From a virus: 24,872 bases of DNA. The stretch spans positions 1 to 24,872 of IMG/VR virus record IMGVR_UViG_3300034520_000190. One strand, given 5' to 3'. A program made the position numbers and the translations under genes. Positions 825 to 24,872 of this stretch are shown here, piece after piece; position 1 is the first letter of the stretch; every line of letters starts with the position of its first letter. Under the pieces are notes generated by a model, which had not been told where the DNA came from, searched no databases, and saw only the letters and a list, made by a program, of their open reading frames with translations.

Positions 825-839
825 CAGGTATTTGTTTAG

Positions 840-868: not shown

Positions 869-874
869 GGTAGC

Positions 875-1070: not shown

Positions 1071-1087
1071 GTTTGGTGGTGGTAGCT

Positions 1088-2880: not shown

Positions 2881-2889
2881 GAGGCCGAC

Positions 2890-4746
2890 ATGGCACGCAT
2901 AGAAACCGCCGAGACAACCGGAGAACTGCTTGCCCGCTTTACCTACGCGGATTCGTGGCGCCAGCAGTACGACGAACGGGCGCTTGCCTGGTACAAGCTG
3001 TACGTCGGCTGGCGGGACGAGCTGCCTGCGGAGCTGAAGGGCCGGTCCAACCTGCACATCCCCAGGACTTACGAGGAAATCGACACGCTGCGGGCGCGCT
3101 TCCTGAAGGCCCTCTTTGCCAGCCGGCCGTACATCGACTTTTTGCCCAGGCCGCGGGGAGCGGATCCGGCCCTGATGCAGGAGCTGGAAGTAAAGGCGAA
3201 GCTGGCCGGCGCCCTGGTGGAAGACCAGCTGGCGGCGGCGGTGCCGGTGTTTTACGACTTCATCACCTGCTTCCTGGTCTACCCGGCAGCCATTGCCTCC
3301 GTGGGCTGGCGGTACGAGACCCGGAAAGTGCGCGTTCGCAGGCCGGTCTTCACCGAATCCTGGATTGAGCAGCCGGACGGCAGCCTGGCGACCATCACCC
3401 GGGTGGAGTGGGTCGAGGAAGAAGTTGAGGCTGTCGAGCGTGACGACAATGACATCCAGGTGGTGGACTTCTTCGACTTCTGGCCCGACCCCCGGGGGAA
3501 GGACATAGATTCCTGCCGGTTTGTGTTCCAGCGGGAGTGGTGCACGGAGCGGGAACTGCGGGACAAGCTGGAGCTGCTCAAACGCGTGGGCGGCGGCAGG
3601 GTGTACGAGCCGGACGACTGGGAGGCCCTGGTGGCGGCCGGCGCAAACCTCCAGGACGGCCGGGAGGACCGCCTGGCGGCTATCGGCCTGGGCAGCGAAA
3701 CCGGCCAGGGCTTCTGGCGCGAGCCCCGCAAGGGTTATCTTATAGAGCTCCTGCACTACTGGGAGGACGACCGGCACGCCATTATCGCCAACCGGCACGA
3801 GCTGGTCTACGACGGGCCGAACCCGTACCACCGGCACGGGAAAAAGCCGTTCATCGCCACGAGTTTCGACCCCCTGCCGGGCGAGTTTTACGGATTATCG
3901 GCGGTGCAACTCATCGAGCACCTGCAGCACGAGCTGAACACCACGCGGAACCAGCGCATAGACAACGTTTCGCTGGTCCTCAACCGCATGTGGAAGGTGC
4001 GCCGGTCGGCGGACATAAACCCGGACGAATTGATTTCCAGACCGCACGGCGTGGTTTGGGTGGACAGCCCGGACGACGTGACCGAGCTGGCCATGAACGA
4101 CGTGACGGCATCTTCATACAACGAGGAACGCATCATCAAGGAGGACATGGAGAACGTCATCGGCGTGCCGGCGGTGGTCCGGGGGGTCAACCCGGCCAGG
4201 CGGGAGACGGCCACCGAGGTCGTCACCAAGAACACCTCCGCCGGATTCCGCTTTGACGTCAAGGTTATGCTCTACGAGGCCCTCTGCCTGAAACGCCTGG
4301 CGTACCTGATGGACTGCAACAACCAGCAGTTCATCGACCAGCCCAGGCTGGTGCGGATGTTCGGGGACGCCGGGATTGAGTGGCGGCGGATTGAGCCCTG
4401 GGAAATCCTCGGCGAGCACGATTACATGCCGGCTGCTTCGTCGGTGGACCCGATGGCCAACAAGGAAATCCGCCGGCAGCAGCTCAACGAGGTCATGCAG
4501 ATCGTGCTCAAGACACAGAACCCGTTCATTGACCTGTACGAGCTGACCAAACTCTGGCTGGAATCTTACGACATCCGGTCAGTTGACAAGCTGCTGAAGC
4601 GGCCCGAAGAGCTGGCCCAGGCCGCACCGGCTGCGCCGGGAGCACCGATACCGCAGCCCGGGCCGGGGGCAGGACCTCCGATGGGACCGGAACAGGTGGC
4701 AGCCATACAGCAATTACTTGGAGGTGGGCAGGTTGGGCCAGGGTAA
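2890..4746 (+). CDS. Portal protein
   Basis: The 618-residue protein forms the ring at the capsid vertex through which DNA passes, and it docks TerL. The start follows AGGAGG. The N-terminal part contains a long helical clip/wing-like region (residues about 30-120). The central part has patterns seen in podovirus portals: a QLIEHLQHELNTTRNQRID helix and, later, ENVIGVPAVVRG followed by RRETATEV and a long helix of the stem/crown type. The C-terminal 45 residues are Pro/Gly/Ala-rich and probably disordered. Position directly after terL and before scaffold and capsid genes agrees. A reverse-strand HNH gene ends four bases after the portal stop; its insertion may have altered the original C-terminus or its coupling to the next gene. 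Confidence 0.88.
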   Translation: MARIETAETTGELLARFTYADSWRQQYDERALAWYKLYVGWRDELPAELKGRSNLHIPRTYEEIDTLRARFLKALFASRPYIDFLPRPRGADPALMQELEVKAKLAGALVEDQLAAAVPVFYDFITCFLVYPAAIASVGWRYETRKVRVRRPVFTESWIEQPDGSLATITRVEWVEEEVEAVERDDNDIQVVDFFDFWPDPRGKDIDSCRFVFQREWCTERELRDKLELLKRVGGGRVYEPDDWEALVAAGANLQDGREDRLAAIGLGSETGQGFWREPRKGYLIELLHYWEDDRHAIIANRHELVYDGPNPYHRHGKKPFIATSFDPLPGEFYGLSAVQLIEHLQHELNTTRNQRIDNVSLVLNRMWKVRRSADINPDELISRPHGVVWVDSPDDVTELAMNDVTASSYNEERIIKEDMENVIGVPAVVRGVNPARRETATEVVTKNTSAGFRFDVKVMLYEALCLKRLAYLMDCNNQQFIDQPRLVRMFGDAGIEWRRIEPWEILGEHDYMPAASSVDPMANKEIRRQQLNEVMQIVLKTQNPFIDLYELTKLWLESYDIRSVDKLLKRPEELAQAAPAAPGAPIPQPGPGAGPPMGPEQVAAIQQLLGGGQVGPG

Positions 4747-4749
4747 GTA

Positions 4750-5403
4750 TTAACGATTCCGGTAACGGTACTTATTGCGACAACTTCTTGAACAAAACCG
4801 CTGCTTACCATTCCATGGATGAAATTCTTTACCACACAATTCACATGTAAAGACTTTCAGGAGTTTGTTTTTGTGGATGCGTAATTCGTTTTTTAAACTT
4901 TGGCGGCTAGGTAATCTTGTGATGCACTCATGATATAACTGATGGCACCGCTTGCATAATACTTCCCAATTAGACCCATCTAATGGATTGTTTTTGCGGT
5001 TACCGTCAATATGGTGCACGAGCAAACTCTTCTCAGCGCCACAACGCATGCATTTAGCGCCATGAATTTTGAAGGCTTCGCGCCTATAGAATTGGGCACC
5101 AGAACCGTTTTTAAAAGCTGGATTGTCTTTACCAAACTTTTTGGTGTTTTGTGCCAGCCATTTGTTTTGACACGCCCGAGAACAAAACCTTGTTTTCCCA
5201 ATTCTGCTCGCAGTTATTTTGTATTCTTTGCTGCAGTATTCGCAGATTGCATATAAATCTTGCCTATTCCAGGCTTTTTGGCAACCTTTTAATCCTTTGT
5301 TCCAGCGGGGGCTTTTATAATAGCACTCCCTTGAACAAAACTTTCTTCCCGGTTTATCAGGAGTAAACAGATTGCCGCATGTAGCACACTTAACTTTATC
5401 CAT
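4750..5403 (-). CDS. HNH endonuclease flanked by FCSRxC zinc fingers (free-standing homing type)
   Basis: The 217-residue protein starts at ATG 5403 behind GGGGAGG (complement of 5413-5419). Three treble-clef-like CxxC...FCSRxC units lie at residues 6-27, 54-78 and 187-208, surrounding an HNH core: CMRC at 118-121, VHHIDGN at 129-135, CKRC at 150-153, then His 154 and His 158. This is the layout of free-standing HNH endonucleases of phages, which nick DNA and spread by homing. It lies opposite to every neighbour in the late operon, is visibly AT-richer (21 of 60 bases are G or C at 4861-4920 versus 35 of 60 at 4681-4740), and has its own promoter. It is therefore an insertion and not part of the virion programme. 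All metal and catalytic motifs look intact. Confidence 0.9.
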   Translation of the reverse strand: MDKVKCATCGNLFTPDKPGRKFCSRECYYKSPRWNKGLKGCQKAWNRQDLYAICEYCSKEYKITASRIGKTRFCSRACQNKWLAQNTKKFGKDNPAFKNGSGAQFYRREAFKIHGAKCMRCGAEKSLLVHHIDGNRKNNPLDGSNWEVLCKRCHQLYHECITRLPSRQSLKNELRIHKNKLLKVFTCELCGKEFHPWNGKQRFCSRSCRNKYRYRNR

Positions 5404-5425
5404 AATAATTAACCTCCCCTTATTG

Positions 5426-5455
5426 ATGCTACCATATGGTGGCGGCAACTGTCAA
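5426..5455 (-). promoter_or_regulatory. Promoter of the HNH gene
   Basis: On the reverse strand TTGACA (5455-5450) and TAGCAT (5431-5426) are separated by 18 bases, 23 bases upstream of the ATG. A short palindrome, ACCATATGGT (5431-5440), fills half of the spacer and could be an operator or simply chance. The same TAGCAT -10 recurs in the promoter of the reverse-strand membrane protein gene at 22166-22171. Confidence 0.55.
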
Positions 5456-5470
5456 TGCAAGGGAGCGAGA

Positions 5471-5671
5471 ATGATGCCATATAAGTCCGAGGCCCAACGT
5501 CGTTGGGCGCACACACCTTCCGGCATGAAAGCTCTTGGAAAATCTAAAGTAAAAGAATTTGACAGGGCCAGCAAAGGGCTTAAATTGCCGGAGAGGGCAG
5601 GTTCAAGCGCGAAGCAGATGGCCGAATGGGCCGCCGCCGCGCTGAAAAAAGCGGGGCGGAAGAAGAGATGA
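5471..5671 (+). CDS. Small basic phage protein (66 aa), function unknown
   Basis: It begins ATGATG at 5471 after AAGGGAG. The sequence opens MMPYKSEAQRRWAHTPSG and is rich in Lys/Arg with Ala-rich helical stretches. Similar short proteins opening MP[YF]KSxAQ and containing an LPER motif are frequent in phage structural regions, but I know of no assigned role. It lies between portal and scaffold and would have followed the portal directly before the HNH gene inserted. Its TGA stop overlaps the ATG of the next gene, so translation is coupled. Confidence 0.75.
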   Translation: MMPYKSEAQRRWAHTPSGMKALGKSKVKEFDRASKGLKLPERAGSSAKQMAEWAAAALKKAGRKKR

Positions 5672-5925
5672 ACCCGAAGACCGCAAGGGACATCAAGATT
5701 GGCGAAGAACTGGAGGCCATGGCCCGGACTGCCGGGTGGAAAATCGTTGATGAGTACATCCAGGACCAGATCGCGGCCAGGCTGAAGGAACTGGAACGCA
5801 CCGAGTTTGACAACCTGGCCCGGGTGGCCCGGCTGCAGGGTGAAATTGCCGGGCTGAGGGCGATAACGATATTCCTGCAAGACCGCCTGCGCAGATACCG
5901 CGAGGCGCTGCAGAAAGGAGAGTAA
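5668..5925 (+). CDS. Small helical phage protein (85 aa), function unknown
   Basis: ATG 5668 overlaps the previous stop (ATGA); the frame extends to 5626 upstream but without a start signal. The protein is almost wholly predicted helix. Residues about 30-80 form heptad-like repeats (KELERTEFDNLARVARLQGEIAGL is an example, given here as a description of the coiled-coil region), so it probably dimerises. It lies just before the scaffold gene. It may assist capsid assembly, but no family was recognised. Confidence 0.7.
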   Translation: MNPKTARDIKIGEELEAMARTAGWKIVDEYIQDQIAARLKELERTEFDNLARVARLQGEIAGLRAITIFLQDRLRRYREALQKGE

Positions 5926-5931
5926 AACTAC

Positions 5932-6732
5932 ATGCCGACCCCTGAAGAATTGGTCAACAGCATTTTCGGCGGGGATACCGGCGCAACAGCCGCCCCCGAG
6001 GAAAGCAACGACGATAACCCCGAGACCCGGGAAACCCCGGAGGCCCCGGAGAACCAGCCGGACACGCCGGAGGGTGAGGGTAAGGGAGATAAGCAGCCGG
6101 AGAAGCTCCTTGCCGGCAAGTACAGGACGGTGGAAGAGCTTGAGGCGGCCTACAAGGAAGCCGAGCGGAATTTCCATGGCAGCCGTCAAGAGCTGGCTGA
6201 ACTGAGGCGCGAGTTCGAGGCGCTCAAGCAGCTGCTGGCCCCGAAACAGCCGGAGCCGGACCTCAAGCAGTACAGGGAAAAACTGCTTGAACGATTGTAC
6301 GAGGAACCCGACGCAGTGATTGCGGAGCTGGCGGAGCGCATTGCCGACCGCAAGCTGCAGGAGCACCTCGGGCCGATCATGCCGGTCATCCAGCAGCAGA
6401 TCATCAACAACCAGGTGCAGCAGTTTATGTCTGCTGTGCCGGACGCGGCGGAGTATGCCGGCGACATGGCAACCATCATCCAGGCCAACCCCGAGCTGGT
6501 CAACCAGCCCGGGTGGCTGGAAAAAGCCTACCTGCAGGCTAAGGTGGCCCGCCTGGAGGCCAAACTGGGCAAAAATGCCGCCGGGGAAAAGGCCGCGCAG
6601 GCCGCGGCGGCCAAGCAGGCGGCTGCCATGCCGAAAGGCGGTAAGGGCGAGCCGCCGGCGCCCAAGACGCAGGAAGAAAAACTCGTCGATGCCATCTTCG
6701 GCGGAGGCGGCGGAGGTGGCATATTCGGATAG
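5932..6732 (+). CDS. Capsid scaffolding protein
   Basis: The 266-residue protein has the usual features of a phage scaffold: an acidic, Pro/Glu-rich disordered segment (residues 15-60), a LAGKYRTVEELEAAYKEAE motif near 62-80 that is common in scaffold proteins, a coiled coil (about 80-130), then helical and Ala/Lys-rich segments. It sits immediately upstream of the major capsid gene, 12 bases apart, behind GGAGGAGTGATCC for the capsid start. It would direct procapsid assembly and be removed before packaging. An unusual point is that nearly the same peptide, LV[ND][SA]IFGG, occurs at residues 7-14 and again at 251-258, next to each end of the chain, suggesting two matching binding tags. Confidence 0.85.
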   Translation: MPTPEELVNSIFGGDTGATAAPEESNDDNPETRETPEAPENQPDTPEGEGKGDKQPEKLLAGKYRTVEELEAAYKEAERNFHGSRQELAELRREFEALKQLLAPKQPEPDLKQYREKLLERLYEEPDAVIAELAERIADRKLQEHLGPIMPVIQQQIINNQVQQFMSAVPDAAEYAGDMATIIQANPELVNQPGWLEKAYLQAKVARLEAKLGKNAAGEKAAQAAAAKQAAAMPKGGKGEPPAPKTQEEKLVDAIFGGGGGGGIFG

Positions 6733-6744
6733 GAGGAGTGATCC

Positions 6745-7881
6745 ATGCCGGTCTATACGACCAACCTGGACAGGGATAGGGTAGTCCTTGACGTTGCAAA
6801 GAAAATCGCCGAGTACGAACCGGACGAAACGCCGTTTACTGTTATTCTGATGCGGGCCAAGAAGCGCAAGACCATCAACCATGAGTACATCTGGTTCGAG
6901 GATTCCCTGGGTGCCCGCTGGACGCAGATCAACAACGCCACCGGGTACGCCTATGACGCCACAAGCATCGTGGTGGACGACGGTACGGTGTTCGCCCCGG
7001 GCGATATGCTGAAGGTCCCGCGCACCGGTGAGACTATGCGGGTCACCGCAGTATCGACCAACACTCTCACGGTAATCCGCGACTGGGGCCAGACCCGCCC
7101 GGCCGCTACGCCGACGGCTTACAACCTCCAGGACAACGACTGGGTGCTGAACATCGGCAACGCAATGAAGGAAGGGTCCACCGCGCCCCAGCCTAAGATC
7201 GGCCAGCCCACGAAGGTCAGCAACTTCGTGCAGATTTTCCGCACCCCGTTCGACGTGACCGGGACGGTAAACGCCGAAGAGCAGGTGACCAGCGAGCAGG
7301 AGCGGGCCAGGCTCTCCCGCACGAAGGGTAAGGAGCACCGCATCGACATCGAGCGGGCCATGCTGTTCGGCGAGAAGCGGGAGTACATCAACGGGAACGA
7401 AATTATCCGCACCACCGGCGGCGCGACCCAGTTCATCAAGACCAACGTCTACGATGCCGGCGGGGTCCTGACCGAAACCAACTTTGAGCGGGAGTTCCTG
7501 GTGAACGTCTTTAATTACGGCAGCTCCCGGAAGCTGCTTGTGGCCTCCCCCCTGCTGTTATCCGTCATCAACGGGTTCGGCAGGGACAAGATCCGGCTGG
7601 TACCCAAGGACGAAGCCTACGGGCTGCGGATTTCCCAGTACATCTCAACCTTCGGCGACCTGTACATGGTGCCGTCCAAAGTGCTGGTGAATTACTACAA
7701 CGGCTGGGGCTTCGTGTTCGACATGGACTATGTGAGCTACCGGCCCCTGCGGGATACCGTCCTGAAGCGCAACATCCAGCAGAACGATGAGGACGTTATC
7801 CGCGACGAATACTTCACCGAGGCCGGGTTTGAGCTGAAACTTGAGAAGGCGCACGGCATCATCAAAGGGGTCACCGGTTAA
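6745..7881 (+). CDS. Major capsid protein, SU10-like (HK97 fold)
   Basis: The 378-residue protein builds the head shell. Order and content match SU10-type (DUF5309-like) capsid proteins. The N-terminus is DETPF-containing, followed by a WFEDSLG segment. A beta-rich insertion includes VTAVSTNTLTVIRDWGQT, then a PFDVTGTVNAEEQ motif, the ERAMLFGE helix and a NYYNGWGFVFDMDYVSYRPL segment. The C-terminal stretch ends EYFTEAGFELKLEKAHGII. The ATG follows AGGAGGAGTGATCC. A strong hairpin lies eight bases after the stop. I see no N-terminal delta domain, which agrees with the separate scaffold gene. Confidence 0.9.
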   Translation: MPVYTTNLDRDRVVLDVAKKIAEYEPDETPFTVILMRAKKRKTINHEYIWFEDSLGARWTQINNATGYAYDATSIVVDDGTVFAPGDMLKVPRTGETMRVTAVSTNTLTVIRDWGQTRPAATPTAYNLQDNDWVLNIGNAMKEGSTAPQPKIGQPTKVSNFVQIFRTPFDVTGTVNAEEQVTSEQERARLSRTKGKEHRIDIERAMLFGEKREYINGNEIIRTTGGATQFIKTNVYDAGGVLTETNFEREFLVNVFNYGSSRKLLVASPLLLSVINGFGRDKIRLVPKDEAYGLRISQYISTFGDLYMVPSKVLVNYYNGWGFVFDMDYVSYRPLRDTVLKRNIQQNDEDVIRDEYFTEAGFELKLEKAHGIIKGVTG

Positions 7882-7889
7882 TTGAATGA

Positions 7890-7912
7890 CGGGCGGGGTT
7901 AATCCCCGCCCG
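7890..7912 (+). other. Stable hairpin directly after the capsid gene
   Basis: CGGGCGGGG (7890-7898) pairs perfectly with CCCCGCCCG (7904-7912) across a five-base loop. No T-run follows on either strand, so it is not a standard intrinsic terminator. It may protect the 3' end of the capsid message or slow transcription to favour capsid over downstream genes. Confidence 0.6.
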
Positions 7913-7933
7913 AATCTGAAAGGAGTGTCTTTT

Positions 7934-8146
7934 GTGGCGCGTTTTTTAAGCAGGTACACGAATTACAGGTTGACGGTGCAGGTAAACGGCGAGGAACTGG
8001 GCACCATCAGGTTCCAGGACGGCGTATTTGAGACCGAGAACGAGGACTTTATTAACTACCTGCGGCGCCATCCCGATTTCGGTGTTGCCATCTTTGAAGA
8101 CAAAGAACCAAAACAAGCGGAAAAGAGGCCGAGGAATAATGGCTAA
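7934..8146 (+). CDS. Small phage protein after the capsid gene (70 aa), unknown
   Basis: The GTG start at 7934 is chosen because AAAGGAG (7918-7924) precedes it by nine bases; the frame is open back to 7886, but that part covers the hairpin. The protein is a small mixed alpha/beta domain (TNYRLTVQVNGEELGTIRF reads as two beta strands) with an acidic centre and a Lys/Arg tail. Small proteins in this place can be head decoration or head-completion factors, but I recognise no family. It overlaps the holin start by eight bases. Confidence 0.6.
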   Translation: MARFLSRYTNYRLTVQVNGEELGTIRFQDGVFETENEDFINYLRRHPDFGVAIFEDKEPKQAEKRPRNNG

Positions 8147-8555
8147 TCTTGCAACTGTAAAATGGCTGCTTGTGACGGCCGGGACAGCCATCACGTCATT
8201 TCTCGGAGGTTGGGATATGGCGCTGCAGGTGCTGGTTATCTTCGTTATCGCGGATTACCTGACCGGCCTTGCAGCGGCCTGGTACGAGGGTAAGTTAAAC
8301 AGCAATGTGGGTTTCAAGGGCATCGCGAAGAAAATACTTCTTTTCGTGCCCGTGGCCGTCGGTTACTGGCTTGATCAGGTCATTGGTCAGAATATACTGC
8401 GGAACCTGGCCATCTGGTTCTACATGGCCAACGAAGGTTTGAGCATCCTGGAGAACCTGGGCAGGGCCGGCGTGCCGATACCAGCCCAGCTGCAGCAGGC
8501 TCTCGAACAACTCAAAAAGAAAGGCGATGGTTCCGGTGAAACGGGTATGCATTGA
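8139..8555 (+). CDS. Phage holin (phage_holin_4 / TcdE-like)
   Basis: This 138-residue membrane protein starts at ATG 8139 after GAGGAA. It has about three hydrophobic segments: residues 8-25, 29-48 with DYLTGLAAAWYEGK immediately after, and 60-80 (KKILLFVPVAVGYWL). The DxxTG...AW...L pattern followed by a GFKGIAKK loop is characteristic of the phi105/TcdE-type holin family of Firmicutes phages. It permeabilises the membrane at a set time to release the endolysin. It overlaps the amidase gene by 29 bases, making a classic holin-endolysin cassette, although the cassette lies unusually early, between capsid and head-tail genes. Confidence 0.88.
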   Translation: MANLATVKWLLVTAGTAITSFLGGWDMALQVLVIFVIADYLTGLAAAWYEGKLNSNVGFKGIAKKILLFVPVAVGYWLDQVIGQNILRNLAIWFYMANEGLSILENLGRAGVPIPAQLQQALEQLKKKGDGSGETGMH

Positions 8556-9273
8556 CGCCGGGCACGGCGGGAAAGACCCGGGCGCGGTCGGACCGACCGG
8601 CCTGCAGGAAAAGGTCGTCACCCTGGCGGTAAGCCTGCAGGTGGCCCAAATTCTGAAGGCGGCGGGCCTGGCTGTAAAGCTGACCCGCACGGATGATTCA
8701 TATGTCGTCCTGTCCCAGCGGGCCGACATATCCAACCAGTTCGGGGCGGATGCTTTCGTGTCAGTCCACGTCAACAGCGTGGATAACAACAAAGCCGGCG
8801 GCACGGAGACCTACCACCACACCATGAGCGCCCCCGGGAAGAAATTGGCCGCGGCAATTCAGAAAAGGCTGGTGTCCGCCCTGGGCCTGGCCGACCGGGG
8901 CGTTAAGAAAGAAAACTTCGCCGTGCTGCGGCTGACCGAGGCACCGGCGGCCCTGGCGGAGCTGGCGTTCATTTCAAACCCCACCGAGGAAGCCCTGCTG
9001 AAAAAGCCGGACTTCCTGGCGAAGGCAGCCCGGGCCATAGCGGAAGGGATAGCCGACTTCCTGGGGGTGCAGCTTCGACCGGCGGAACAGGCACCTGCGC
9101 CGGCGGCTCCTTCTCCGGCAAATGAGGACGCGGTGAAGATTGTGGCCGGAGAGAAAACCATCGAAGGCATTATGCTTAACGGTGTTACCTACGCACCGGT
9201 CAGGGCGCTGGCTGAGGCACTGGGCAAGCAGGTGAAGTGGGACCCGGCGAAAAGAGAAGTTGAAATTCTGTAG
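8527..9273 (+). CDS. N-acetylmuramoyl-L-alanine amidase endolysin (Amidase_3) with stalk domain
   Basis: The 248-residue enzyme cuts the amide bond between MurNAc and the stem peptide. Residues 5-183 form an Amidase_3 domain: the zinc ligands are H13 in DAGHGGKDPGA, E28 in LQEKVV and H81 in SVHVNS, with catalytic E145 in LAELAFISNP. A Pro/Ala linker (about 190-205) leads to a C-terminal copper-amine-oxidase-like stalk module (about 208-248: IMLNGVTYAPVRALAEALG...VKWDPAKREVEI), which is frequent on clostridial secreted proteins and probably binds the wall. There is no signal peptide, in agreement with release by the upstream holin. ATG 8527 is used; GTG 8536 is an alternative start with somewhat better spacing. 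Confidence 0.93.
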   Translation: MVPVKRVCIDAGHGGKDPGAVGPTGLQEKVVTLAVSLQVAQILKAAGLAVKLTRTDDSYVVLSQRADISNQFGADAFVSVHVNSVDNNKAGGTETYHHTMSAPGKKLAAAIQKRLVSALGLADRGVKKENFAVLRLTEAPAALAELAFISNPTEEALLKKPDFLAKAARAIAEGIADFLGVQLRPAEQAPAPAAPSPANEDAVKIVAGEKTIEGIMLNGVTYAPVRALAEALGKQVKWDPAKREVEIL

Positions 9274-9288
9274 CGGGGAGCGGTGGCC

Positions 9289-9804
9289 ATGACCGCTGGA
9301 GATATTATCGCGTTTGCTGCGGATCGCCTCGTTAAAAAGTCCATCGACCCAAACGATGGCATAGGTTGGCTGAACGACGCGCTGACCGACCTGGGCATTG
9401 ATGCGTTCAGGTTCAACGAGCAGGCAATTGTTGCCGTGGCCAACACCTGGGTCAACCTGCCCGCCGACTGCCTCAAGGTTTACGAAGTACGGGACAGCCA
9501 GGGCAAGGATTACCGCGATTGGGAAGCGGATGCGGCCCGGATCCGCTTCGCCGACGATGATACATTTACTGTCAGGTATTACCGGTTGCCGAACGAGGTC
9601 GTTTCAATCAACGACACTCCTGACTGTCCGGAAATATATCACCGCGCCCTGGCCTATTACATTGCCTACCGCTTCGAGGCCCGGGACTTTCCAGGGGAAC
9701 AGGATACCCTGGCCTGGCTCTCTGAATACCAGGCCCGCATGAATAGCGCCCGCAAGCAACTGCAGAAAAACACCAAGCTGGTAAATGTGCGTGTCGTGAG
9801 GTGA
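9289..9804 (+). CDS. Head-tail adaptor (connector) protein, SU10-like
   Basis: ATG 9289 lies nine bases after GGGGAG; GTG 9283 is closer than usual to that site. The 171-residue protein has an N-terminal helical segment with IGWLNDALTDLGID, a short beta region (WVNLPADCLKVYEVRD, VRYYRLPNEV), then CPEIYHRALAYYIAYRFEARDF and a final helix. This matches the helical-bundle adaptor proteins that bind the portal in podoviruses and SU10-type phages. Location between capsid/lysis genes and the tail nozzle supports the role. The exact family cannot be confirmed by reading alone. Confidence 0.72.
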   Translation: MTAGDIIAFAADRLVKKSIDPNDGIGWLNDALTDLGIDAFRFNEQAIVAVANTWVNLPADCLKVYEVRDSQGKDYRDWEADAARIRFADDDTFTVRYYRLPNEVVSINDTPDCPEIYHRALAYYIAYRFEARDFPGEQDTLAWLSEYQARMNSARKQLQKNTKLVNVRVVR

Positions 9805-9809
9805 CGGCC

Positions 9810-11210
9810 ATGCCGGTGGCTGAATGGGAGATAAGGGATTTTTCGGAGGGCCTGATCGACCGGGTTGACGACAACCTGCTACCCGAGAACGTGGCTATGG
9901 ACTGCCAGAACTTTATCAGCAGAAGAATCGGCAGTTTGGTCAAGCGGGCCGGGCAGGCGAGGTTGAACGGAAGCCCCCTTGGCGGCCCGGTCCAGGGGAT
10001 GCATGCCTACTACAAAGGCAGTCTCCGTCGGCTGGTGGTTGTCGCAGGCGGCGTAGCTTCTTACTGGGACCCGGGCACGTCCAGTTTTGTGACCTTAAAG
10101 ACCGGGCTCGACCCCTCGACACCGGTGTGTTTTGAGACCTGCGTTAACTACATGGTCAGCTTTAACGGGGTTAACGCCCCCTGGAAATGGGACGGCACTA
10201 CAGTTTCTACCTTGCTGGGGGCGCCAGGCGACGGCCAGTTTGCTGTACTGCATAAGGAGAAGCTGTTCACCGTTCCCAAAAGCGAACCGTCCACCCTCCG
10301 GTGGTCGGACAGTTTCCAGCCCGAAACCTGGCAATCCGTGAATTACTGGGACGTGAAGAAGGGGGACGGGGATGTAATAACAAACCTGAGCCAGTACCTA
10401 TCCGAGTTGGCGGTTTTTAAGCGCCGTTCCCTGCACGTCCTGCGGGGCACCAATCTGGACGATTTTGGCCTGGACGAGGTTGATTCCCGTACTGGCTGCG
10501 TGGGACCTTTCGCCGCAGTTTCTTACGGGCCGTACTTGTATTTTGTCAGCGACGAGGGTATATGCGTGTTCAACGGGACAAGGGTGTTCAACCTCTCCCG
10601 TGAACGGATCCCGGATTTCTGGAAGAGCATCAACAAAGAATACCTGCACAGGGCCGCCGCGGGCGTTTGGGACGGGTTGATCTGGTTCGCGCTGCCCGAA
10701 GGGGGCAGTTCATATAACAACGTGGTTCTGGTATATGTCCCGCCCGAAGAAGGGGCCGTCGGTGGGAAGTTTTGGGTGTGGCGGGGGATAAATGCTTCCT
10801 GTTTCCAGGTGTACGATGACGGCACCCGGCTTTTGTTTTACAGCGGGGATTCCACGGCCGGATACGTTAACCAGCAAGATGTGGGTACAGACGATTTTGG
10901 CAGCCCCATCGAAGCCTACTGGGTGGGCAGGACGTTCGCCATAGGCGAGGCTGACAGGAAAAACCGTTTCCTGCGGGCTTTTGTCCAGGACAGTCCCGGG
11001 GCCAACGATGTTGACCTGCAGGTTGCAATAGATTACGGTCCGTTTGAATCGCTGGTACCCGACGGCGGGGACGCTTTGGTAAGGCGGTACAACTTCTACA
11101 ACACGTATACAGGTCGGTACCTGCAACTCAAACTGACCCATTCAGCCCTTGGCTCCTGCGAGGTGCGGGGGCTTAAAGTGCTTTACAAGCCGATGAAAAG
11201 GGCTTCGTAG
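9810..11210 (+). CDS. Tail nozzle / stopper-type beta-propeller protein
   Basis: ATG 9810 follows GAGGTGA, a near-perfect site (GTG 9801 is the alternative). The 466-residue protein opens with the EWEIRDFSEGLIDRVDDNLLPENVAMDCQN pattern (a FxxGL...P..A....N module) typical of podovirus tail tubular/nozzle proteins. It continues with repeated beta strands of propeller type: YYKGSLRRLVVVAGGVASYWD, LHKEKLFTV, SELAVFKRRSLHVL, GPYLYFVSDEGICVFNG. The C-terminus turns into an Ig-like or barrel region. It would plug or extend the short tail below the adaptor. Together with the absence of tape measure and tube genes this argues for podovirus morphology. Confidence 0.75.
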   Translation: MPVAEWEIRDFSEGLIDRVDDNLLPENVAMDCQNFISRRIGSLVKRAGQARLNGSPLGGPVQGMHAYYKGSLRRLVVVAGGVASYWDPGTSSFVTLKTGLDPSTPVCFETCVNYMVSFNGVNAPWKWDGTTVSTLLGAPGDGQFAVLHKEKLFTVPKSEPSTLRWSDSFQPETWQSVNYWDVKKGDGDVITNLSQYLSELAVFKRRSLHVLRGTNLDDFGLDEVDSRTGCVGPFAAVSYGPYLYFVSDEGICVFNGTRVFNLSRERIPDFWKSINKEYLHRAAAGVWDGLIWFALPEGGSSYNNVVLVYVPPEEGAVGGKFWVWRGINASCFQVYDDGTRLLFYSGDSTAGYVNQQDVGTDDFGSPIEAYWVGRTFAIGEADRKNRFLRAFVQDSPGANDVDLQVAIDYGPFESLVPDGGDALVRRYNFYNTYTGRYLQLKLTHSALGSCEVRGLKVLYKPMKRAS

Positions 11211-15726: not shown

Positions 15727-16362
15727 ATGATCGATGAACTGATCAACTTCCTTTCAAGCGTGCGCCAGCCGCAAAATACCCTGACAAACCAGGTTTTCCA
15801 GGCGCTCCAGAGAACCAATCCACCGGTTTACGTAGTACCCGACGACCAGATGCCCCGGGTCAGGTATGGCGAAGAGGTGCCGCGCCAGAACTGGCAGCAG
15901 GCCCTCAGCTCCATCCTGGGGGCGTTGCAGGTGCACAGGGCACAGAACCCCGTTTATATCCCGTTCAAGCCCGGGACGCCGACGCAGCAGAGATTGTACC
16001 AGCAGGAGTCGCTGGCTTTGCAGCGCGAGCTTGGCTATCTCCCGTACCAGTATGTACCTGCTGATACCATGTTGAAAGCATCGTTACCCGACAGTTCCGA
16101 GACTAAATATACGAAGGATGATTACGAGGCCGACCTGTACGGGCTCCGCGAGTATTACGCGAGCGCAAAAGATTACCGGGCCAGCCTGGAAAGGAACGCC
16201 ACCGAAATCATCCGGCGGATAGGAAAGAGTGCTTACAACAGGTTGCTTGAGGAAGCCAAGGAGGCTGAACGGCAGGAGATGTCCGGTCAGCTGAAGTGGG
16301 TCAGGAGATACCAGGTTCAGGGCGATCCGATCCGCGAATACTTTAAGATGATAGGTGGTTAA
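15727..16362 (+). CDS. Hypothetical late protein (211 aa), possible internal virion protein
   Basis: ATG 15727 comes one base after the previous stop, with GGGGGG as ribosome binding site. The protein is soluble. Its N-terminal third is helical ([23 protein letters not shown]), followed by a Pro/Tyr-rich middle ([19 protein letters not shown]), then a charged helical C-terminal half with [22 protein letters not shown] do not recognise it. It lies between a coiled-coil protein and the giant transglycosylase protein and is coupled to both (TTAACATG occurs at both of its gene borders), so a role with them in DNA ejection is plausible but inferred only from position. Confidence 0.6.
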
Positions 16363-16363
16363 C

Positions 16364-19300
16364 ATGGCCTCCTTAAACCTGCTCATATACGAAAAAGCGC
16401 AGAAATACGGCCTGCCGCCGAAACTGCTTTACGAGCTGGTGCGGCAGGAATCAGGGTTCAACCCCAGGGCCAAATCCCCCGCCGGCGCCATGGGGCTGAC
16501 CCAGCTCATGCCCGCCACAGCCAAAAGCCTGGGCGTGACCGACCCTTACGACCCGGAGCAGAACCTGGACGCCGGGGCCAGGTACCTGCGCCAGCAGCTG
16601 GACAGGTTCGGGCGCATCGACCTGGCCCTGGCCGCCTACAACGCCGGGCCGGGGGCCGTCCAGAAGTACGGCGGCATTCCCCCGTACAAGGAGACGCAGG
16701 CATACGTCCAGAAGATTCTCAAGAACGCGGGGATACAGCCCGGAAAGCTGTACACTGCGGGAGAGGCCATGCATCTCCTGCAGTCCCAGAGCAAAGCGCC
16801 GCAGCAGAAACCCAACTACCTGGAGCAGTTCCGGCAGTTGTATGCAAAACCATATACGCCGCCCAAGCAGGCAGCAAAAGCACCTGCAGCCGAAAAGCCG
16901 CGAAAGAGCTGGTACACCTCCCTGGACGAGCGGCTGGGCGGGCTGCTGCCTTTCGGCGCACCAGTGGCCGGCACCACCACCGCACCGCAGAGAAGCCTGG
17001 GGGAAAGGCTGCTGCGCGGTTTCGAGCAGGCATCCGAGGGTCTAATCCGGGGCGTTACCCTGGGCCTGGGCGGCCAGGGCGGGCTCATCGAACGCGGCGT
17101 GGCCAGGCTGTTCGGGCAGGAACCACCACCGCCGCCGAAGCCGGAAACCCTGGGGGAAAGGATTGCCGCCGGTGCCGGGGAGCTTGCCGGGCCCCTGGTT
17201 CCCATCAGCGGGCTTTACGGCACGGTGGGGAAGGCTGCGGCCCGGCTCATACCCGAGACGGCTACCGGCCTGGCGGCCCGGGTGGGGCGCGCCTTCCTCC
17301 CCGGTGCGGCCAGCGGTGCTGTTTACGGGGCTGTTACAGGGGCCGCACAGGGGGAATCCCCGGCGGATGTGCTCAAGGAAGCTGCCCTGAATGCCGCGCT
17401 GTTTGGCGGCGGAGACGTGGCCTTCCGGGCGCTGGGCCGTGCCGCTTCCTCCGCCTGGCGCAGGTTGAGGGGAATACCGGAAACCCCGCCTGAAACTCCA
17501 CCCGTCCGGGAAGCCGTGCCCGTCGAACCGGACTTCACCGTTGAACCGGGCGGTACCGTCCATATCGGCAGGCCCAGGCTGCGCTTGCCGGAGGGCGAGG
17601 TGCAGCGGCCGGCGGCCCTCCCGGGTGTCAGGGCGCTTCCCCCGGCGAGGGAATTTACGCCGGACTTCACCGCCGGGCCGGAAGGTGTCGAGGTCGGCGT
17701 TTCCAGGCCGCGCCTGGCCGGCACCGATGCCATCGCGCTGCCACCCGCCCCCGAGGAGCACCTGGACATCTTCATGAAGTCCCCGCAGTTCCGGCGCATG
17801 GTGGACGACATCATTAACCGGCGCAATGCAGTGGCCTCCCGGGTGCTGGAAACCTTGAAGCCCGAGGTGGAAAGCCGGGTTGCCCAGCTGGGCCGCCCGC
17901 TGGAGCAGGGCGAGCTTTACAGCATCGTCCGCGAGGTTGGGCAGAACAGGGGCATCGACGTGGACCGGCTGCTTGAGAAGGCCAGCATGTCCCGTGAACA
18001 GGTTGCCGAAGAACTTGCCCTTGCCTACCGCAGCGGTGCCCGGGAACTGCCGTTGTTCGGGAGGGACTTCGAGGTGCCCGGGGCGGAGTTTCCGGCGCCT
18101 GAAAGGGCCGCACAGAGCAAAACGGCAGAAACCCCGGTCGCTACCGCCGGAAAAACACAACAACAGCGGCAAGCCGGCAATGTCGTTCCTCTTCCGCCCG
18201 CAAAGCCCGACGCGGCCAGAATAGAATCCCGCACGTTTGAAGAGGTGGGCAGCAGGAATGTAAAAGCCATTCAACATGAATATCCACAGCTCAAGCCATA
18301 CATTCAGGCCGAAGCAAGGCGGTTGCTACGGGAACTTGAGGATTCTGTAAAAGGCGAGCGGTTTTATACCCGTAACGAGGCTGGGGAGCTCATTATTACC
18401 GGCACGAAGCGGTTTACCAGCGAGCCCATTGAGCGGATCCTTGATACTACCGGTGCAAGTTATAAGGAAATCAGGGAGGCCCTTCAGCGGATTATTCACG
18501 ATGAGGGAGCGGAAAACCAGGCCCTGGCCAAGCGCATCGAACTGGTTATTGACGAGAACCTTACCCATGGCACCAGGACCATCGAGGGATATGAGATACC
18601 GCCCAACGAGGAATACATTCGCGCCAAGGGCGGGGAAGTAAGGCCGCCCGAAGAAGATATAGAAATCGACTGGGACGCCATTGACTTTATGCGGCGGCCA
18701 AGGCAAGCCCAGGGGGGGCGGATCGGATCTGCCGGCGTGCGCCAGCCGCAAGCGGAGCAGATGGCCAGGCCCGCCCAGCAGGCGGCCGCCACTTCCGCTG
18801 CCTCCACCACCCCGGGGCGGGAAATCAAGCGGCGCAAGATAATCAAGGACCTTGAGAAGGCCCTTGAGCTGCCCATCCGCGTGGGCCGCTACCGCCAGCA
18901 GGCTTACGGCATTTACAAGGTTAAGCCCGAGGTGGTCCGCACCCAGCTGGCCGAAGACATGCCGGTGATTGCCCACGAGGTAGGTCACCATCTGGACAAG
19001 ATGTTCGGTATTCGGAAGACCGTATTCCGCGACCCCGCAATGCGGGCAGAGCTTATCGCACTTGGCAGCACACAGCCGGACAGGGAAAGGTGGTTTACCG
19101 AGGGCATTGCCGAGTTCATGCGGCATTACCTGACAGGTGACGTGGCCGCGTTGAAGAAGGCCGCGCCGAACTTCTTCGACTGGTTCGAGAACACGGTGAA
19201 GCAGGAAACCCGGGTGTGGGACGCCCTGCAGAGGTTCCGGCAGGACTATCACGACCTGACGAACGCCCCGGCGGTGGCCAGGATCAAGGCCGGCATTTCA

Positions 19301-21829
19301 GTGAACGAGAAAACAAAGCGCCCGGTGACCTGGGACAGGCTGATGACGGCCATGGTGGACGACCTGCGGCCCATCGACAGCTTTGTGGAGAAAGTCACCG
19401 GCGGCGGGAGAGCCCGGGCTGAACTGAAAGCCACGGAGGACCCGTTCATTCAGGCCCAGCTGTTCCGGGGCTGGACCGGAAAGGCCCGCCAGGCCCTGTA
19501 CGACGGGGTTTACGACAGCAACTTCAACAAGGTGGGGCCGTCCCTGCGGGAAATCCTGAAGCCCGTGCGGGACCGGCTGGACGACTTCCGGGCCTACCTG
19601 GTGGCCAAACGCGCCCGGGAACTGCACGCCCGGGGGATTGAAACGGGCTACAGCCAGGCCGACGTGGAGCAGGCCATCAAGGAGCTGGAGAATCCGGTTT
19701 TTCAGAAGGCCCAGCAGGACCTGGTCAGGTTCCAGGACCAGATCCTTGACCGCCTGGTTGAATCTGGCGTACTCTCCCGGGAGCAGGCCGCCGCCATGCG
19801 GGCAATGAACAGGGAATACGTGCCCTTCTACCGGGTATTTGACGAGAATGCCGGCGGGGTGGGGTTCGGCAAGCGCGGTTTTGCCGACCTGGCGCCGCCC
19901 ATCCGCCGGCTGAAAGGGTCCAGCCGGACCATCGTTGACCCACTTGAATCCATCATCAAGAACACCTACTACCTGACCAACATCGCCGAGCGAAACAACG
20001 TGGGTCGCACCCTGGTGGAGCTGGCCGAGAAGTACGAGGGCATGGGCAAATTTGTCGAGAAGGTGGACCCGAAGCGGTACCCGGTTCAGTTCCAGGTTGG
20101 GGATATAGCCCGGAAGCTGGAGCAGCTGGGCGTAGAGGTACCGGATGATGCGCTCCGGGAAGTGCTTACCGTTTTCCGTCCGAACATGACGGGTTCCCCC
20201 GGGGAAAACATCCTGGCCGTCTACCGTAACGGAAAGCGGGAGCTGTACCAGCTGGACCCCGAGTTGTACCGGGCCGTGCTGATGCTGGACAGGGAAAGCA
20301 CAAATACCCTGATGCGGCTGTTAAGCGCCCCCGCCTCCTGGCTGCGGGCCGGGGCGACCCTGAGCCCCGAGTTCATGATCCGCAACCTCATGCGGGACGC
20401 CGTGAGCACCTGGGTCTACAGCCGGTACGGGTTTATTCCGGTTATAGACACCATCCGCGGACTGTTCCACGTTATCCGGCGGGACGACCTCTATCAAAAG
20501 TGGCTGGCCTCCGGCGGTGCGCAGGCCACACTGACCAGCCTGGACCGGGCCTACCTGCAGGAGGACATCCGAAAGCTGGTTGCGGACCGGCTGAAGGATA
20601 AGGCGTTCCTTTACCTGCGGAATCCGCTTGATTTACTGCGCAAGCTGTCCGAGTTCTCCGAGGAAGCCACCCGCCTTGGCGAGTTCGCCCGGGCGGTAAA
20701 GAAGGAGGGTATGACCCGGGAAGGGATCCAGAAGGCGGCCCTGGCCAGCCGGGACATCACCCTGGACTTCGGGCGGGCCGGTACTGCGGGCAGGTCTATT
20801 AACCAGGTTGTGGCCTTCTTCAATGCCGCCGTACAGGGGCTGGACAAGATGCGCCGGGCGTTTTTCAAGGGCGACCCGAAACAGATAGCCCGGCACTGGA
20901 TCCGGGCGACGACCTTCATCACCCTGCCCTCTGTGGCGCTGTGGGCCTTGAACCACGACGACCCGCGCTACCGGGAGTTGCCTGATTGGCGGAAGGACCT
21001 CTTCTGGAACATCCTGACGCCGGATTATATCATCTCCATCCCCAAACCGTTTGAGCTGGGAGTTATCTTCGGCACGCTGCCGGAACGGATCCTTGATTGG
21101 GCCTACAATACAGACCCGGAAGCGGTCAAGAAGTGGGCGCACACGTTCCTGGAGGCAACATCCCCGGGCTGGCTCCCCACGGCCCTGGCCCCTATCATCG
21201 AAGTCATAACCAACCACAGCTTTTTCAGGGGTCAGCCGATAGTGCCCATGAGCGAGCAGAACCTGCCGGCCAGTGAGCAGTACGGGCCGTACACCACCGA
21301 AACAGCCAAGCTCATCGGCAGGGGCATGGCGGCCATCACCGGCGGAGAAGGTGTGTCGCCCCGCAAGGTGGAAACCATCCTGCGCGGGTACGGCGGCGGC
21401 CTGGCCATGCACGGCGCGGCCATCCTGGACACCATCCTGCGTAAGACCGGGGCGGTGGAAGACCTGCGGCCCGCAAAGAGCCTTGCCGACTACCCGGGAA
21501 TCAAGGCCGTGGTCCAGGAACCATACCGGCAGGCGCAGAGCATTGACGATTTTTACAAGTACCTCGACAGGCTTGAAAGGAAAGCGGCTGCAACGAAGAA
21601 ATACCAGGAAGCCGGGAAGCCGGTCCCGCCGGTATACCGCTACAGCCCGGAAGAGCTGCGCTATGCCCGCAAAGTGGCCCGTGAGCTGTCCGAGCTGCGC
21701 AAGCAGCACAAGGCAGTTTTCATGAGCCGGGAACTTTCGCCGGAGCAGAAGAGGGAAGCGATGCGAAGAATCAATATGATGATGATCAACCTGGTGCGCG
21801 GGACGTTAGGAGAAAAGCCGGCCAGTTAG
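16364..21829 (+). CDS. Giant polyvalent ejection protein: lytic transglycosylase, HExxH zincin, LPD38-like region
   Basis: The 1821-residue protein starts at ATG 16364 after AGGTGG (GTG 16355 is the alternative). Residues 1-125 are an SLT domain with catalytic E29 in VRQESGFNP, then [12 protein letters not shown] and [12 protein letters not shown]. Residues about 205-330 are Gly/Ala-rich amphipathic segments that could insert in membrane. A Pro-rich linker region follows. Near 871 is a metalloprotease motif HEVGHH (H871, E872, H875), with E913 in WFTEGIAEF as likely third ligand. Residues about 1335-1535 ([33 protein letters not shown], and later helices) resemble LPD38 of polyvalent proteins. 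The probable role is injection with the DNA, to cut the cell wall and process host or phage proteins. It is the last gene of the late operon. Confidence 0.87.
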
Positions 21830-21840
21830 CGGCCGGCTTT
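21814..21840. terminator. Bidirectional intrinsic terminator between convergent genes
   Basis: A 10-bp helix (21814-21823 with 21831-21840, core GCCGGCC/GGCCGGC) with a seven-base loop has T-rich tails both ways: TTTCTTATT on the forward strand and TTTTCTCC on the reverse. It ends the late operon and the reverse-strand membrane gene. Both genes' stop codons lie inside the loop. Confidence 0.88.
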
Positions 21841-22134
21841 CTTATTCATCGTGCGGGGGAAGTGCTTGCGGAACCACGGGGGATAATTGGCGTAGGGGTC
21901 TGGCCTGAGCTTGCGTATCAGCCAGCGGATGGGGGCGTAAAATACGTAGTAGCACAGCCAGAACACGGCACAGAACAGCAGCCAGGCGCCAAAAGCCATC
22001 TGGAGCACCCACATGATGGGGTTCCAGCCCTCACCGGTGGCCGGGTCCACTACCTGGATGCATGAGGCGAACAACACAAGGGCGATGGCCACGGCTGCAG
22101 TCCAGCAGAGGACGTCCTTTTGCTTTTCGGTCAC
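21826..22134 (-). CDS. Small membrane protein, two transmembrane segments, unknown
   Basis: The GTG start at 22134 is preferred because AAGGAGG lies six bases ahead; an ATG 18 bases further upstream would put that site inside the gene. The 102-residue protein has a hydrophobic segment at about residues 9-31 and a second, long aromatic-rich one at about 46-75 ([21 protein letters not shown]), then a basic C-terminal tail. It is transcribed apart from the late operon, from its own promoter, next to the attP-like site, as phage genes expressed during lysogeny often are. A superinfection-exclusion or lysogenic-conversion role is possible; no family was recognised. Confidence 0.7.
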
Positions 22135-22165
22135 TCGATCCCTCCTTTTCATTTTCTTTGTTTAA

Positions 22166-22194
22166 ATGCTACCCTTCGCTTAACATTTTGTCTA
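22166..22194 (-). promoter_or_regulatory. Promoter of the small membrane protein gene
   Basis: On the reverse strand TAGACA (22194-22189) and TAGCAT (22171-22166) are 17 bases apart, 32 bases upstream of the GTG start. A short dyad TATTC/GAATA (22193-22197 and 22205-22209) touches the -35 and could be an operator. Confidence 0.55.
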
Positions 22195-22208
22195 TTCCAA
22201 TATAGAAT
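22180..22208 (+). promoter_or_regulatory. Possible forward promoter reading across the attP-like dyad
   Basis: TTAACA (22180-22185), 17 bases, TAGAAT (22203-22208): five of six consensus matches in each box. It overlaps the reverse promoter of the membrane gene. A transcript would cross the dyad at 22235-22282 and meet a GC hairpin (22299-22304 with 22311-22316, then CCTTTAG). No forward gene follows, so it may be fortuitous in AT-rich sequence or make a small RNA antisense to the integrase end. Confidence 0.35.
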
Positions 22209-22234: not shown

Positions 22235-22282
22235 GGATACGTATTAGAAGCGACGGCCAGCCGACGCTACTAATACGTAACC
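22235..22282. other. Candidate attP of the serine integrase (48-bp dyad centred on CA)
   Basis: Counting outward from the CA at 22258-22259, 20 of 23 position pairs are complementary. The arms contain TACGTATTAG (22238-22247) against CTAATACGTA (22270-22279), AGCG/CGCT, and CGGC/GCCG next to the core. The only breaks are single A-A oppositions at 22253/22264, 22248/22269 and 22237/22280. A roughly 50-bp dyad around a non-palindromic dinucleotide is the known architecture of large-serine-recombinase attP sites, and it lies 38 bases beyond the integrase stop. The alternative is a hairpin of a small RNA. Confidence 0.68.
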
Positions 22283-22319
22283 TGATCGTTGGGGGAACCG
22301 GCGGGAAAATCCGCCGCCT

Positions 22320-23804
22320 TTAGTCCAGCAGCTGGACTTCCACGTTCCCCGGGTAGATAACAATCCTTTTTACAATAGACCTGATGAGCATTTTTCTTTC
22401 CTGGACGTCCGCGGCTTCCCACAGGCTACGGACGTTTTTTATTGCCTCGGCCACCTGTTTTAAAGTCATTTCCTTCGTCTCCAGCCTGGCAAGGGACGCC
22501 TCCAGTTCCTCAATTTGCCGCATTTTCTCTTCCTTTTCCCTGTTCAGCTGGTCCAGCCTCTCCCTGAAATCCGGGAAGCCAATACCGCCCTGCTCGTAGA
22601 GGTCGAACCATTTCTGCTTGCGCCTGTCCACCTCGGCCAGGGCCTTTCTGGCCTCTTCCAGGTATGCGGCCATGCTTGCGCCCTGTTCAATTTCTTCCCG
22701 CACGTTCCGGTATGCCTCCCAGTAGAGGGAGGAATCCCGGCTGTATTCCTCCAGGACGTCCAGGACCATGCCTTCCAGGCGCTCCGCCTGGATCGCGCTG
22801 TTCCTGCAGCTGAACCCGTGTTCCCTGCCGATGCAGCGGTAATACTTGACTATCCTGCCCGGCTTCTTCGCTTTGCGGAACCATCCCCGGTAGCGGCTGC
22901 CGCAAATCCCGCAGTAGACCAGGCCGCTCAGGGGGTACTGGCTGGCCACCTCCCGCATGTGCATGACAGACTTCTTCTCAATCATGTCCTGCACCTTCCA
23001 GAATAATTCCCGGTCGATAATCGGTTCATGTTTTCCTTCGACGATTACCCATTCCTCCCTGGGCCGCCTGATGGTCCTGGTCCCTTTCCTCTGTGTGCGG
23101 TTGTAGACCATGTAGCCGGCATACTCCGGGTTTGTGAGGATCTGGCGGACCGTAATGTTCGACCACTCGTTTCCCTTCCGCGTCCTTATTCCCGAGCTGT
23201 TAAGATGTTTTGCTATCGCCCGCATACCCGTGCCCCGGGCGTAGAGGTTGAACATCTGTTTAATCACTGCGGCTTCGTGGGGCACAATGACAAGCCGCTT
23301 GTCTTCGTTCATGTAGCCGTAGGGGGCCTGGTACGCGCCGCACCATTCACCGCTCCTTGCCTTGTGGAGCATGTTCACCTTCACCCGCTCTGCGATGGAT
23401 TCCCGCTCGAACTGGGCGAAGGCGACCAGCATGGACAGCATCAGCCGGCCGGCAATGGTGCCGGTGTCAAAAGGTTCGGTAACGGATTTCAAACAAACCT
23501 GGGCAGGTTCAAAGACTTCCTCTACCACACGCAAAAGGTCCACGGCCCGGCGGGAAAAGCGGTCCAGCCGGTAGACCAGGACGACATTGAACTTCTTTTG
23601 CCTCGCTTCCTCTATAAGCCTCCTGACGGCGGGCCTGTCCAGGTTTTTGCCGGAATATCCGTCGTCAATGAAATAGTCGTATATTTCCCAGCCCTGGGAC
23701 TTGCAGAAGGCCTCCAGCCGCTCTTTTTGGCTGGCGATGGAATAACCCTCGGCGGCCTGGTCCTCGGTTGAAACCCGCAGGTAAAGCGCGGCCCTGGTGG
23801 TCAT
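22320..23804 (-). CDS. int: Large serine recombinase (phage integrase)
   Basis: The 494-residue enzyme starts at ATG 23804 behind GGAGGGAACC. Residues 1-150 form the resolvase-type catalytic domain with nucleophile S12 in LYLRVSTEDQ and R79/R82 in YRLDRFSRR. Residues about 160-265 form the Recombinase domain (YGYMNEDKRLVIVPHEA, LNSSGIRTRKG, ILTNPEYAG). A zinc ribbon follows with C298, C301, C324 and C333, and then a coiled coil at about 380-445, used to join attP and attB complexes. All the parts of an active large serine integrase are present at normal length. It integrates the phage at attB without host factors; excision needs a directionality factor, not identified here. It is last in a reverse operon after repressor and repeat-protein genes. 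Confidence 0.96.
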   Translation of the reverse strand: MTTRAALYLRVSTEDQAAEGYSIASQKERLEAFCKSQGWEIYDYFIDDGYSGKNLDRPAVRRLIEEARQKKFNVVLVYRLDRFSRRAVDLLRVVEEVFEPAQVCLKSVTEPFDTGTIAGRLMLSMLVAFAQFERESIAERVKVNMLHKARSGEWCGAYQAPYGYMNEDKRLVIVPHEAAVIKQMFNLYARGTGMRAIAKHLNSSGIRTRKGNEWSNITVRQILTNPEYAGYMVYNRTQRKGTRTIRRPREEWVIVEGKHEPIIDRELFWKVQDMIEKKSVMHMREVASQYPLSGLVYCGICGSRYRGWFRKAKKPGRIVKYYRCIGREHGFSCRNSAIQAERLEGMVLDVLEEYSRDSSLYWEAYRNVREEIEQGASMAAYLEEARKALAEVDRRKQKWFDLYEQGGIGFPDFRERLDQLNREKEEKMRQIEELEASLARLETKEMTLKQVAEAIKNVRSLWEAADVQERKMLIRSIVKRIVIYPGNVEVQLLD

Positions 23805-23869: not shown

Positions 23870-24274
23870 TCAGAATCCATCATCGAACCAGGTATTTCCG
23901 ATGTAGCGCCCAACCGTACTCCTTCCCCAGCTGTAATCGGTGTAAAGGTTCCTGCCGAGCCAGTAGCTTGTTGCACTCGTCCCGTCGCTCCAGTTCGTGT
24001 AGAAGCGGCTGCCCAGCCGGTAACCGGAAGAGCTTAAACCGTTGCTGTAATCGGTGTAAATGCGGTTGCCGATGCGGTAGGTTGTCGCACTCAGGCCGTT
24101 GCTCCAGTCGGTGTAAAGACGGTTGCCTATGTAGTAGCTTTTTGCCGTGAGCCCGTTGCCGTAATCGTAGTAGTACGTCCTGCCGATCCAGTAACCGGTA
24201 CCGGCAAAAGCCGTTGCCGAGAGGGCCAGGACCAGCACGAGTGCAAGCACAAGTATTGCCGCCGTCTTTTTCAC
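23870..24274 (-). CDS. Secreted protein of 19-residue Tyr/Gly/Asn repeats
   Basis: The GTG start at 24274 is chosen because AAAGGAGGTGATC precedes it at ideal spacing; another in-frame GTG at 24283 lies inside that site. Of 134 residues, 1-24 form a signal peptide (KK, long Leu/Val/Ala core, ATAFA cleavage site). The mature part is five exact 19-residue repeats (28-46, 47-65, 66-84, 85-103, 104-122) and a partial sixth, with consensus Y-x-[IL]-G-[NSR]-R-x-Y-[TY]-[DN]-[YW]-x-x-G-x-[ST]. There is no cysteine and no anchor. The ribosome binding site begins right at the repressor stop, so it is expressed in lysogeny. The function is unknown; a lysogenic-conversion or surface-acting role is inferred from context. 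Confidence 0.85.
   Translation of the reverse strand: MKKTAAILVLALVLVLALSATAFAGTGYWIGRTYYYDYGNGLTAKSYYIGNRLYTDWSNGLSATTYRIGNRIYTDYSNGLSSSGYRLGSRFYTNWSDGTSATSYWLGRNLYTDYSWGRSTVGRYIGNTWFDDGF
23873..24193 (-). repeat. 57-bp coding tandem repeats in the secreted protein
   Basis: Five full units and one partial unit without length variation encode the IG-x-R-x-Y-T-D repeat. Unit-to-unit differences are spread through the sequence, so this is a protein-level repeat and not a recent DNA expansion. Confidence 0.85.
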
Positions 24275-24289
24275 CTGGATCACCTCCTT

Positions 24290-24872
24290 TCACTTGAATC
24301 TTTTTATAGCTTGAATAACCTCTCCAAGAACCATAATTTCGTCGGGCTTGTAGATTTGCAGGTCATAGTTCGGGTTTTCCGGTTTCAGGATTATCATGCC
24401 GTTTTGGCTATAATATTTCTTTACTGTTGCTTCGCCGGTTTCTCTTACCAATACCACGGCAATGCTGCCGTTGTCTACTAAAGACTGCTTGCGCACAAGA
24501 ACCAGGCTACCGTCAAATATACCCGCATTTCTCATGCTATCGCCTGTGACACGCAGAAAAAAGTATTCGCCGCCCATTATGTCCTCTTCGGACACCCAGC
24601 AATAGTCAATGATATTCTCCTCCGCGTATATCGGTTCTCCCGCCCTGATTATGCCATAAACCGGGACAGGCACAAGTTTGCCGGCGGGGTAGGTGCCCGG
24701 AATAAGAGAGATGTCGGGATTGCTGCCGCCCAGCAGGTAGTCTATTGAAACACCAAAAAATTGGGCAATGCGCTTTAGCATCTCAATGTCCGGCTTGCGG
24801 GTACCCCTCTCATACTGGCAAATTGTTGATTTTCCAACCCCGAGGATTTTACCCAGTTCCTCCTGGGTAATC
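24290..24872 (-). CDS. CI/LexA-type phage repressor (XRE + S24 peptidase), 5' end outside window
   Basis: The frame is open to the right edge, so the N-terminus is missing. The visible part begins ITQEELGKILGVGKSTICQYERG, the second half of an XRE helix-turn-helix, followed by FFGVSIDYLLGG. After a linker comes a LexA-like S24 domain. The self-cleavage Ala-Gly is in GIIRAGEP, catalytic Ser in TGDSMRNAGIFDG, and catalytic Lys in ATVKKYY. Such repressors hold the prophage silent and cleave themselves when RecA is activated by DNA damage. The motifs are intact, so induction should be SOS-dependent. The gene leads the reverse operon with the secreted repeat protein and the integrase. An internal ATG at 24781 is not the true start. 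Confidence 0.93.
   Translation of the reverse strand, partial: ITQEELGKILGVGKSTICQYERGTRKPDIEMLKRIAQFFGVSIDYLLGGSNPDISLIPGTYPAGKLVPVPVYGIIRAGEPIYAEENIIDYCWVSEEDIMGGEYFFLRVTGDSMRNAGIFDGSLVLVRKQSLVDNGSIAVVLVRETGEATVKKYYSQNGMIILKPENPNYDLQIYKPDEIMVLGEVIQAIKRFK

Follow-up and report, generated by a model that had tools for sequence, protein, structure and literature searches.

The window, i.e. the whole 24,872-nt stretch of viral DNA analysed here, is an incomplete virus record in which the virion genes lie on the plus strand and include an SU10-type portal and capsid, a terminase, an amidase and a 1,824-aa transglycosylase protein (16355-21829), whose transglycosylase domain is N-terminal and is accompanied by a C-terminal LPD38 domain. 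A 232-aa ORF on the minus strand (4750-5448), between the portal gene and the next virion genes, resembles an HNH-type zinc-finger endonuclease and is possibly a homing endonuclease. The viral contig IMGVR_UViG_3300033999_000100 (L012, positions 3384-11120) is 98% identical to the window over 7.7 kb (125-7864), with abrupt divergence before position 125, and extends approximately 6.5 kb further upstream, where a DnaC/IstB-like ATPase and a phage metallopeptidase are encoded, indicating that the window is without the early region.

The minus strand carries a large serine recombinase (integrase) gene at 22320-23804, assigned from Pfam, PHROG 95 and alignments, for which the ATG at 23804, preceded by GGAGGG, was adopted as the start (the ORF caller places it at 23870). 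The predicted protein is complete, with resolvase (N-terminal), recombinase and zinc-ribbon domains (PF00239, PF07508 and PF13408, all above the Pfam cut-off), matches the PHROG 95 integrase at E = 5e-148, and is related to the solved integrases of A118 and SPbeta. The motifs YxRVST...Q, YRLDR and ERE..AERV, which hold the catalytic serine and arginine residues, are invariant across seven aligned integrases. Upstream on the same strand lies an S24-family repressor (24290-24781, minus; PF00717, E = 8e-29; PHROG 4 transcriptional repressor), and between the two is a 137-aa ORF (23870-24283, minus) with a signal-like start, approximately four repeats of 19 aa that correspond to 57-nt DNA repeats at 23930-24184, and no match in Pfam or PHROG. 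The integrase stop codon (22320-22322, minus) is followed immediately by a small G+C-rich hairpin on the same strand (22300-22315, from RNA folding and direct reading), which has no T-run on the integrase's strand and whose status as a terminator is uncertain. On the far side of the non-coding gap is a 108-aa ORF from the ORF list (21826-22152, minus), apparently with membrane segments and with no family match in Pfam or PHROG.

Within this gap, starting 37 nt past the integrase stop, is a 48-bp pseudo-palindrome (22235-22282, with no strand assigned) that reads GGATACGTATTAGAAGCGACGGC CA GCCGACGCTACTAATACGTAACC. The repeat finder returned exactly these arms, 87% complementary and 2 nt apart, corresponding to a half-site distal to the integrase gene (22235-22257, plus) and a proximal one (22260-22282, plus). 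They pair at 20 of 23 positions, each of the three breaks being an A opposite an A; the repeat finder and the dyad scan thus found the sequence-only reading, which had described a 48-bp dyad with 20/23 pairs, A-A breaks and a CA centre, accurate in every detail. The non-palindromic character of that centre was likewise borne out by the repeat finder, and the CA at 22258-22259 forms a two-base axis; in the integrase's orientation it is TG, and the site reads GGTTACGTATTAGTAGCGTCGGC TG GCCGTCGCTTCTAATACGTATCC. A scan of the whole window for dyads with 23-nt arms and centres of 0-4 nt ranked this site highest, the runner-up independent site pairing at 17/23, and none of 200 full windows simulated with a first-order Markov model scored above 18, a value attained in two, compared with 20 for the real dyad. 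A serine integrase requires an attP site, the natural location of which is beside the integrase gene.

The regions 3' of related integrases were surveyed over their first 110 nt, at a cut-off of 16/23 pairs. Eleven of the 31 distinct regions contained a two-base-axis dyad at or above this cut-off, beginning 2-23 nt past the integrase stop, and no odd-axis dyad of at least 16/23 was present among the 31; among 1550 windows drawn at random from these loci, 9 reached the survey score. The even axis matters because the cut made by serine integrases falls on a central dinucleotide, a centre for which a hairpin or an operator has no need. No dyad of at least 16/23 was found in the other 20 regions, many of which may be prophage hybrid sites or may come from elements with an attP located elsewhere. 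Forty of 78 prophage records end at the integrase stop and were excluded as boundary evidence, since trimming at gene edges would yield the same ends. In the Geobacillus phages PK5.2 and E2, Parageobacillus phage NIIg3.2 and Paenibacillus phage Riker, whose integrases are 33-36% identical to that of the window, the dyads lie 7-14 nt past the integrase stop, with the order repressor-integrase-dyad in all four and with the centres TT, CA, TT and TC, respectively. These phages thus have the gene order, the two-base axis and the dyad right after the integrase stop in common with the window, whereas the arms and most of the centres differ, E2 being the one with the same CA.

An alignment-based scan of viral contigs recovered the phage contig IMGVR_UViG_3300033149_001645 (L036), whose integrase is 54% identical to that of the window and which has an S24 repressor upstream of it, as in the window. 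Its dyad (18/23, at +23 after the integrase stop) reads GTTGTCTTACTAAAAGCGTCGGC TG GCCGACTTTTTCGGAAAGACAAC and has 15 bases identical to the window dyad, AGCGTCGGCTGGCCG (22254-22268 of the window, minus, from the alignment), in the same register over both axes and with the TG centre included. This is the longest stretch common to the two gaps, compared with at most 13 in 1000 shuffles, and the part that is kept is the inner part of the site, whereas the outer arms differ. The conservation of the core alongside an integrase of 54% identity indicates that the dyad goes with the integrase, the behaviour expected of a recognition site; the capsid protein of the window phage had no detectable match in L036, a possibly partial record. 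The core had 44 matches in the viral contigs, among which only L036 combines a dyad above 15/23 with a nearby integrase.

The sequence-only reading had proposed the junctions of integrated relatives as a check, and this comparison gave a split at the dyad for Riker (L029) and contig L078, the phage and the prophage form, respectively, of one relative, with 99.8% identity between their integrases. The two sequences match at 30/30 bases on the side of the axis nearer the integrase, at the TC centre and over the next 9 nt; from there they diverge, and L078 enters a host gene (prkA) encoding a protein with a match to the PrkA AAA domain (E = 4e-34). The dyad score at the Riker axis falls from 16 to 8 in L078. 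The Riker integrase is approximately 36% identical to that of the window, so this direct view of the split comes from a distant relative, and, with several bases around the axis common to phage and host, the cut cannot be assigned to a single dinucleotide from the junction alone. The L078 prophage, from approximately position 4480, is inserted in the prkA-like gene at the stretch coding for GCPMHEEP. Contigs L072 and L087, whose integrases are approximately 64% identical to that of Riker, enter similar sequence at the same place as L078 and appear to use the same insertion place. In a separate group, comparison of L044 and L046 with L065 (integrases 76% identical) placed the divergence just after the AC centre. 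As judged from these sequence comparisons, the dyad in the relatives is the meeting point of phage and host. For the window phage itself the same check returned no integrated form, attL, attR or attB in the genome and viral collections; the sequence of the window runs uninterrupted through the dyad, in agreement with a free phage genome.

The exact half-site pattern had no match in the viral contigs, and a shorter half-site pattern had one, within a coding ORF of an unrelated-looking contig (L013) with no integrase match, which was attributed to chance. The nearest integrase in the genomes (58% identical) lies in an integrative element of MAG MES5 (L002), which was dropped as boundary evidence because the element edges were not placed. 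Two trmH-like gene copies, 97% identical and with different flanks, occur in MES5 (L002 12435-13592; contig C4 of G001, L015, L020); one adjoins the serine integrase of the integrative element, and the duplicate on the other contig was rejected as an empty site because its flanks do not match the contig of the element. With one mismatch, the 15-bp core gave scattered matches in unrelated genes across 398 genomes, and no attB was identified among them; three matches in a sigma-factor-like gene were set aside as attB candidates, being similar sequences in separate genomes that were not clearly beyond chance given the number of matches. A speculative and rather unlikely extension would be that the core mirrors a conserved host sequence, with both phages using the same attB, perhaps in a conserved coding gene, and their integrases forming a subfamily that reads this gene in many bacteria.

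Other explanations for the dyad were considered against the same observations. One is a transcription terminator or RNA hairpin serving to stop integrase transcription or to keep it separate from the 108-aa ORF. In its favour, the dyad region gives a good RNA fold (-46.5 kcal/mol over 106 nt; z = -3.9) and is located past the integrase stop. However, neither strand has a T-run after the dyad, and the site is absent from the output of the terminator scan. Pairing within an RNA would also not call for a two-base axis kept in place across many phages, for a 15-bp core conserved through the loop, or for prophages to break at the axis, making this explanation very improbable. An operator for the S24 repressor or another regulator, controlling a promoter of the 108-aa ORF, is given almost no weight, since the promoter-like sites nearby (22166-22194, minus, and 22180-22208, plus) are about as many as chance would give (2 against an expected 1.8) and, although repressor sites are dyads, a continuous 48-bp dyad is long for a single repressor dimer and its conservation tracks the integrase in L036, the contig without a detectable match to the window phage's capsid protein. 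The record being an incomplete virus contig, the dyad could also be a recombination site of the same integrase in another role, e.g. the attL or attR of an integrated copy, or a decayed site, but the two halves in the window match at 20/23 where the split site in L078 scores 8, and the window showed no recognisable host gene to the left or right of the dyad, leaving this reading scarcely credible as well.

The preferred reading is that the dyad is the predicted attP of the adjacent large serine recombinase, with a probability of roughly 0.93, based on the 20/23 pairs, the simulations and the equivalent dyads 3' of related integrases. The same interpretation had been put forward in the sequence-only reading and is supported by the position of the site, its two-base axis, the core in the 54%-identical relative and the phage/prophage split in the 36%-identical relative. 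A structure has been solved for the LI integrase-attP complex, in which attP is pseudo-palindromic with 25-bp half-sites, approximately 50 bp are contacted by the dimer, and the zinc-ribbon domain lies on the outer nine bases with the recombinase domain inside (PMC3783163). The attP of Listeria phage A118 and LI integrase (PMC3783163) resembles the window site as a pseudo-palindrome of approximately 50 bp with a central dinucleotide, paired with an integrase of the same domains, but its sequence and centre differ, and the window attP is a prediction from sequence. The earlier claim of a match in size and position to known serine-integrase attP sites also held, with 48 bp compared with approximately 50 bp (PMC3783163) and a location 37 nt past the stop, the relatives being alike in this. 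The large serine recombinase catalogue of Durrant et al. 2022 (PMC10083194) covers the same enzyme class and follows the same site logic, with the core dinucleotide in a short identical centre, but its att sites were predicted from integrated/empty genome pairs, whereas the window site was predicted without such a pair.

Under the attP reading, an integrase dimer would bind both half-sites over 48-50 bp, the recombinase domain probably contacting the inner bases and the zinc ribbon probably the outer GGWTACGTA. The integrase would then pair attP with a host attB, expected to have the same central dinucleotide, and all strands would be cut at the central CA (TG as read along the integrase gene), followed by rotation and rejoining, the orientation being fixed by the non-palindromic centre. 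Strand exchange at this CA (22258-22259, plus) is highly likely, given its position on the dyad axis and the identical dinucleotide on the axis in L036. The circular phage genome would thereby open at the dyad, producing a lysogen in which the integrase and repressor occupy one end and the 108-aa ORF and virion genes the opposite end.

The site is a fresh example of a well-known kind of site. Serine integrase pairs serve as genome-engineering tools, and the locus offers a concrete integrase-attP pair, with a predicted attP, from an uncultivated phage without a close relative in the collections searched; the predicted crossover is testable in vitro. The results also suggest a rule, namely that in phages without an integrated relative attP may be located by seeking a dyad with a two-base centre shortly after the integrase stop.
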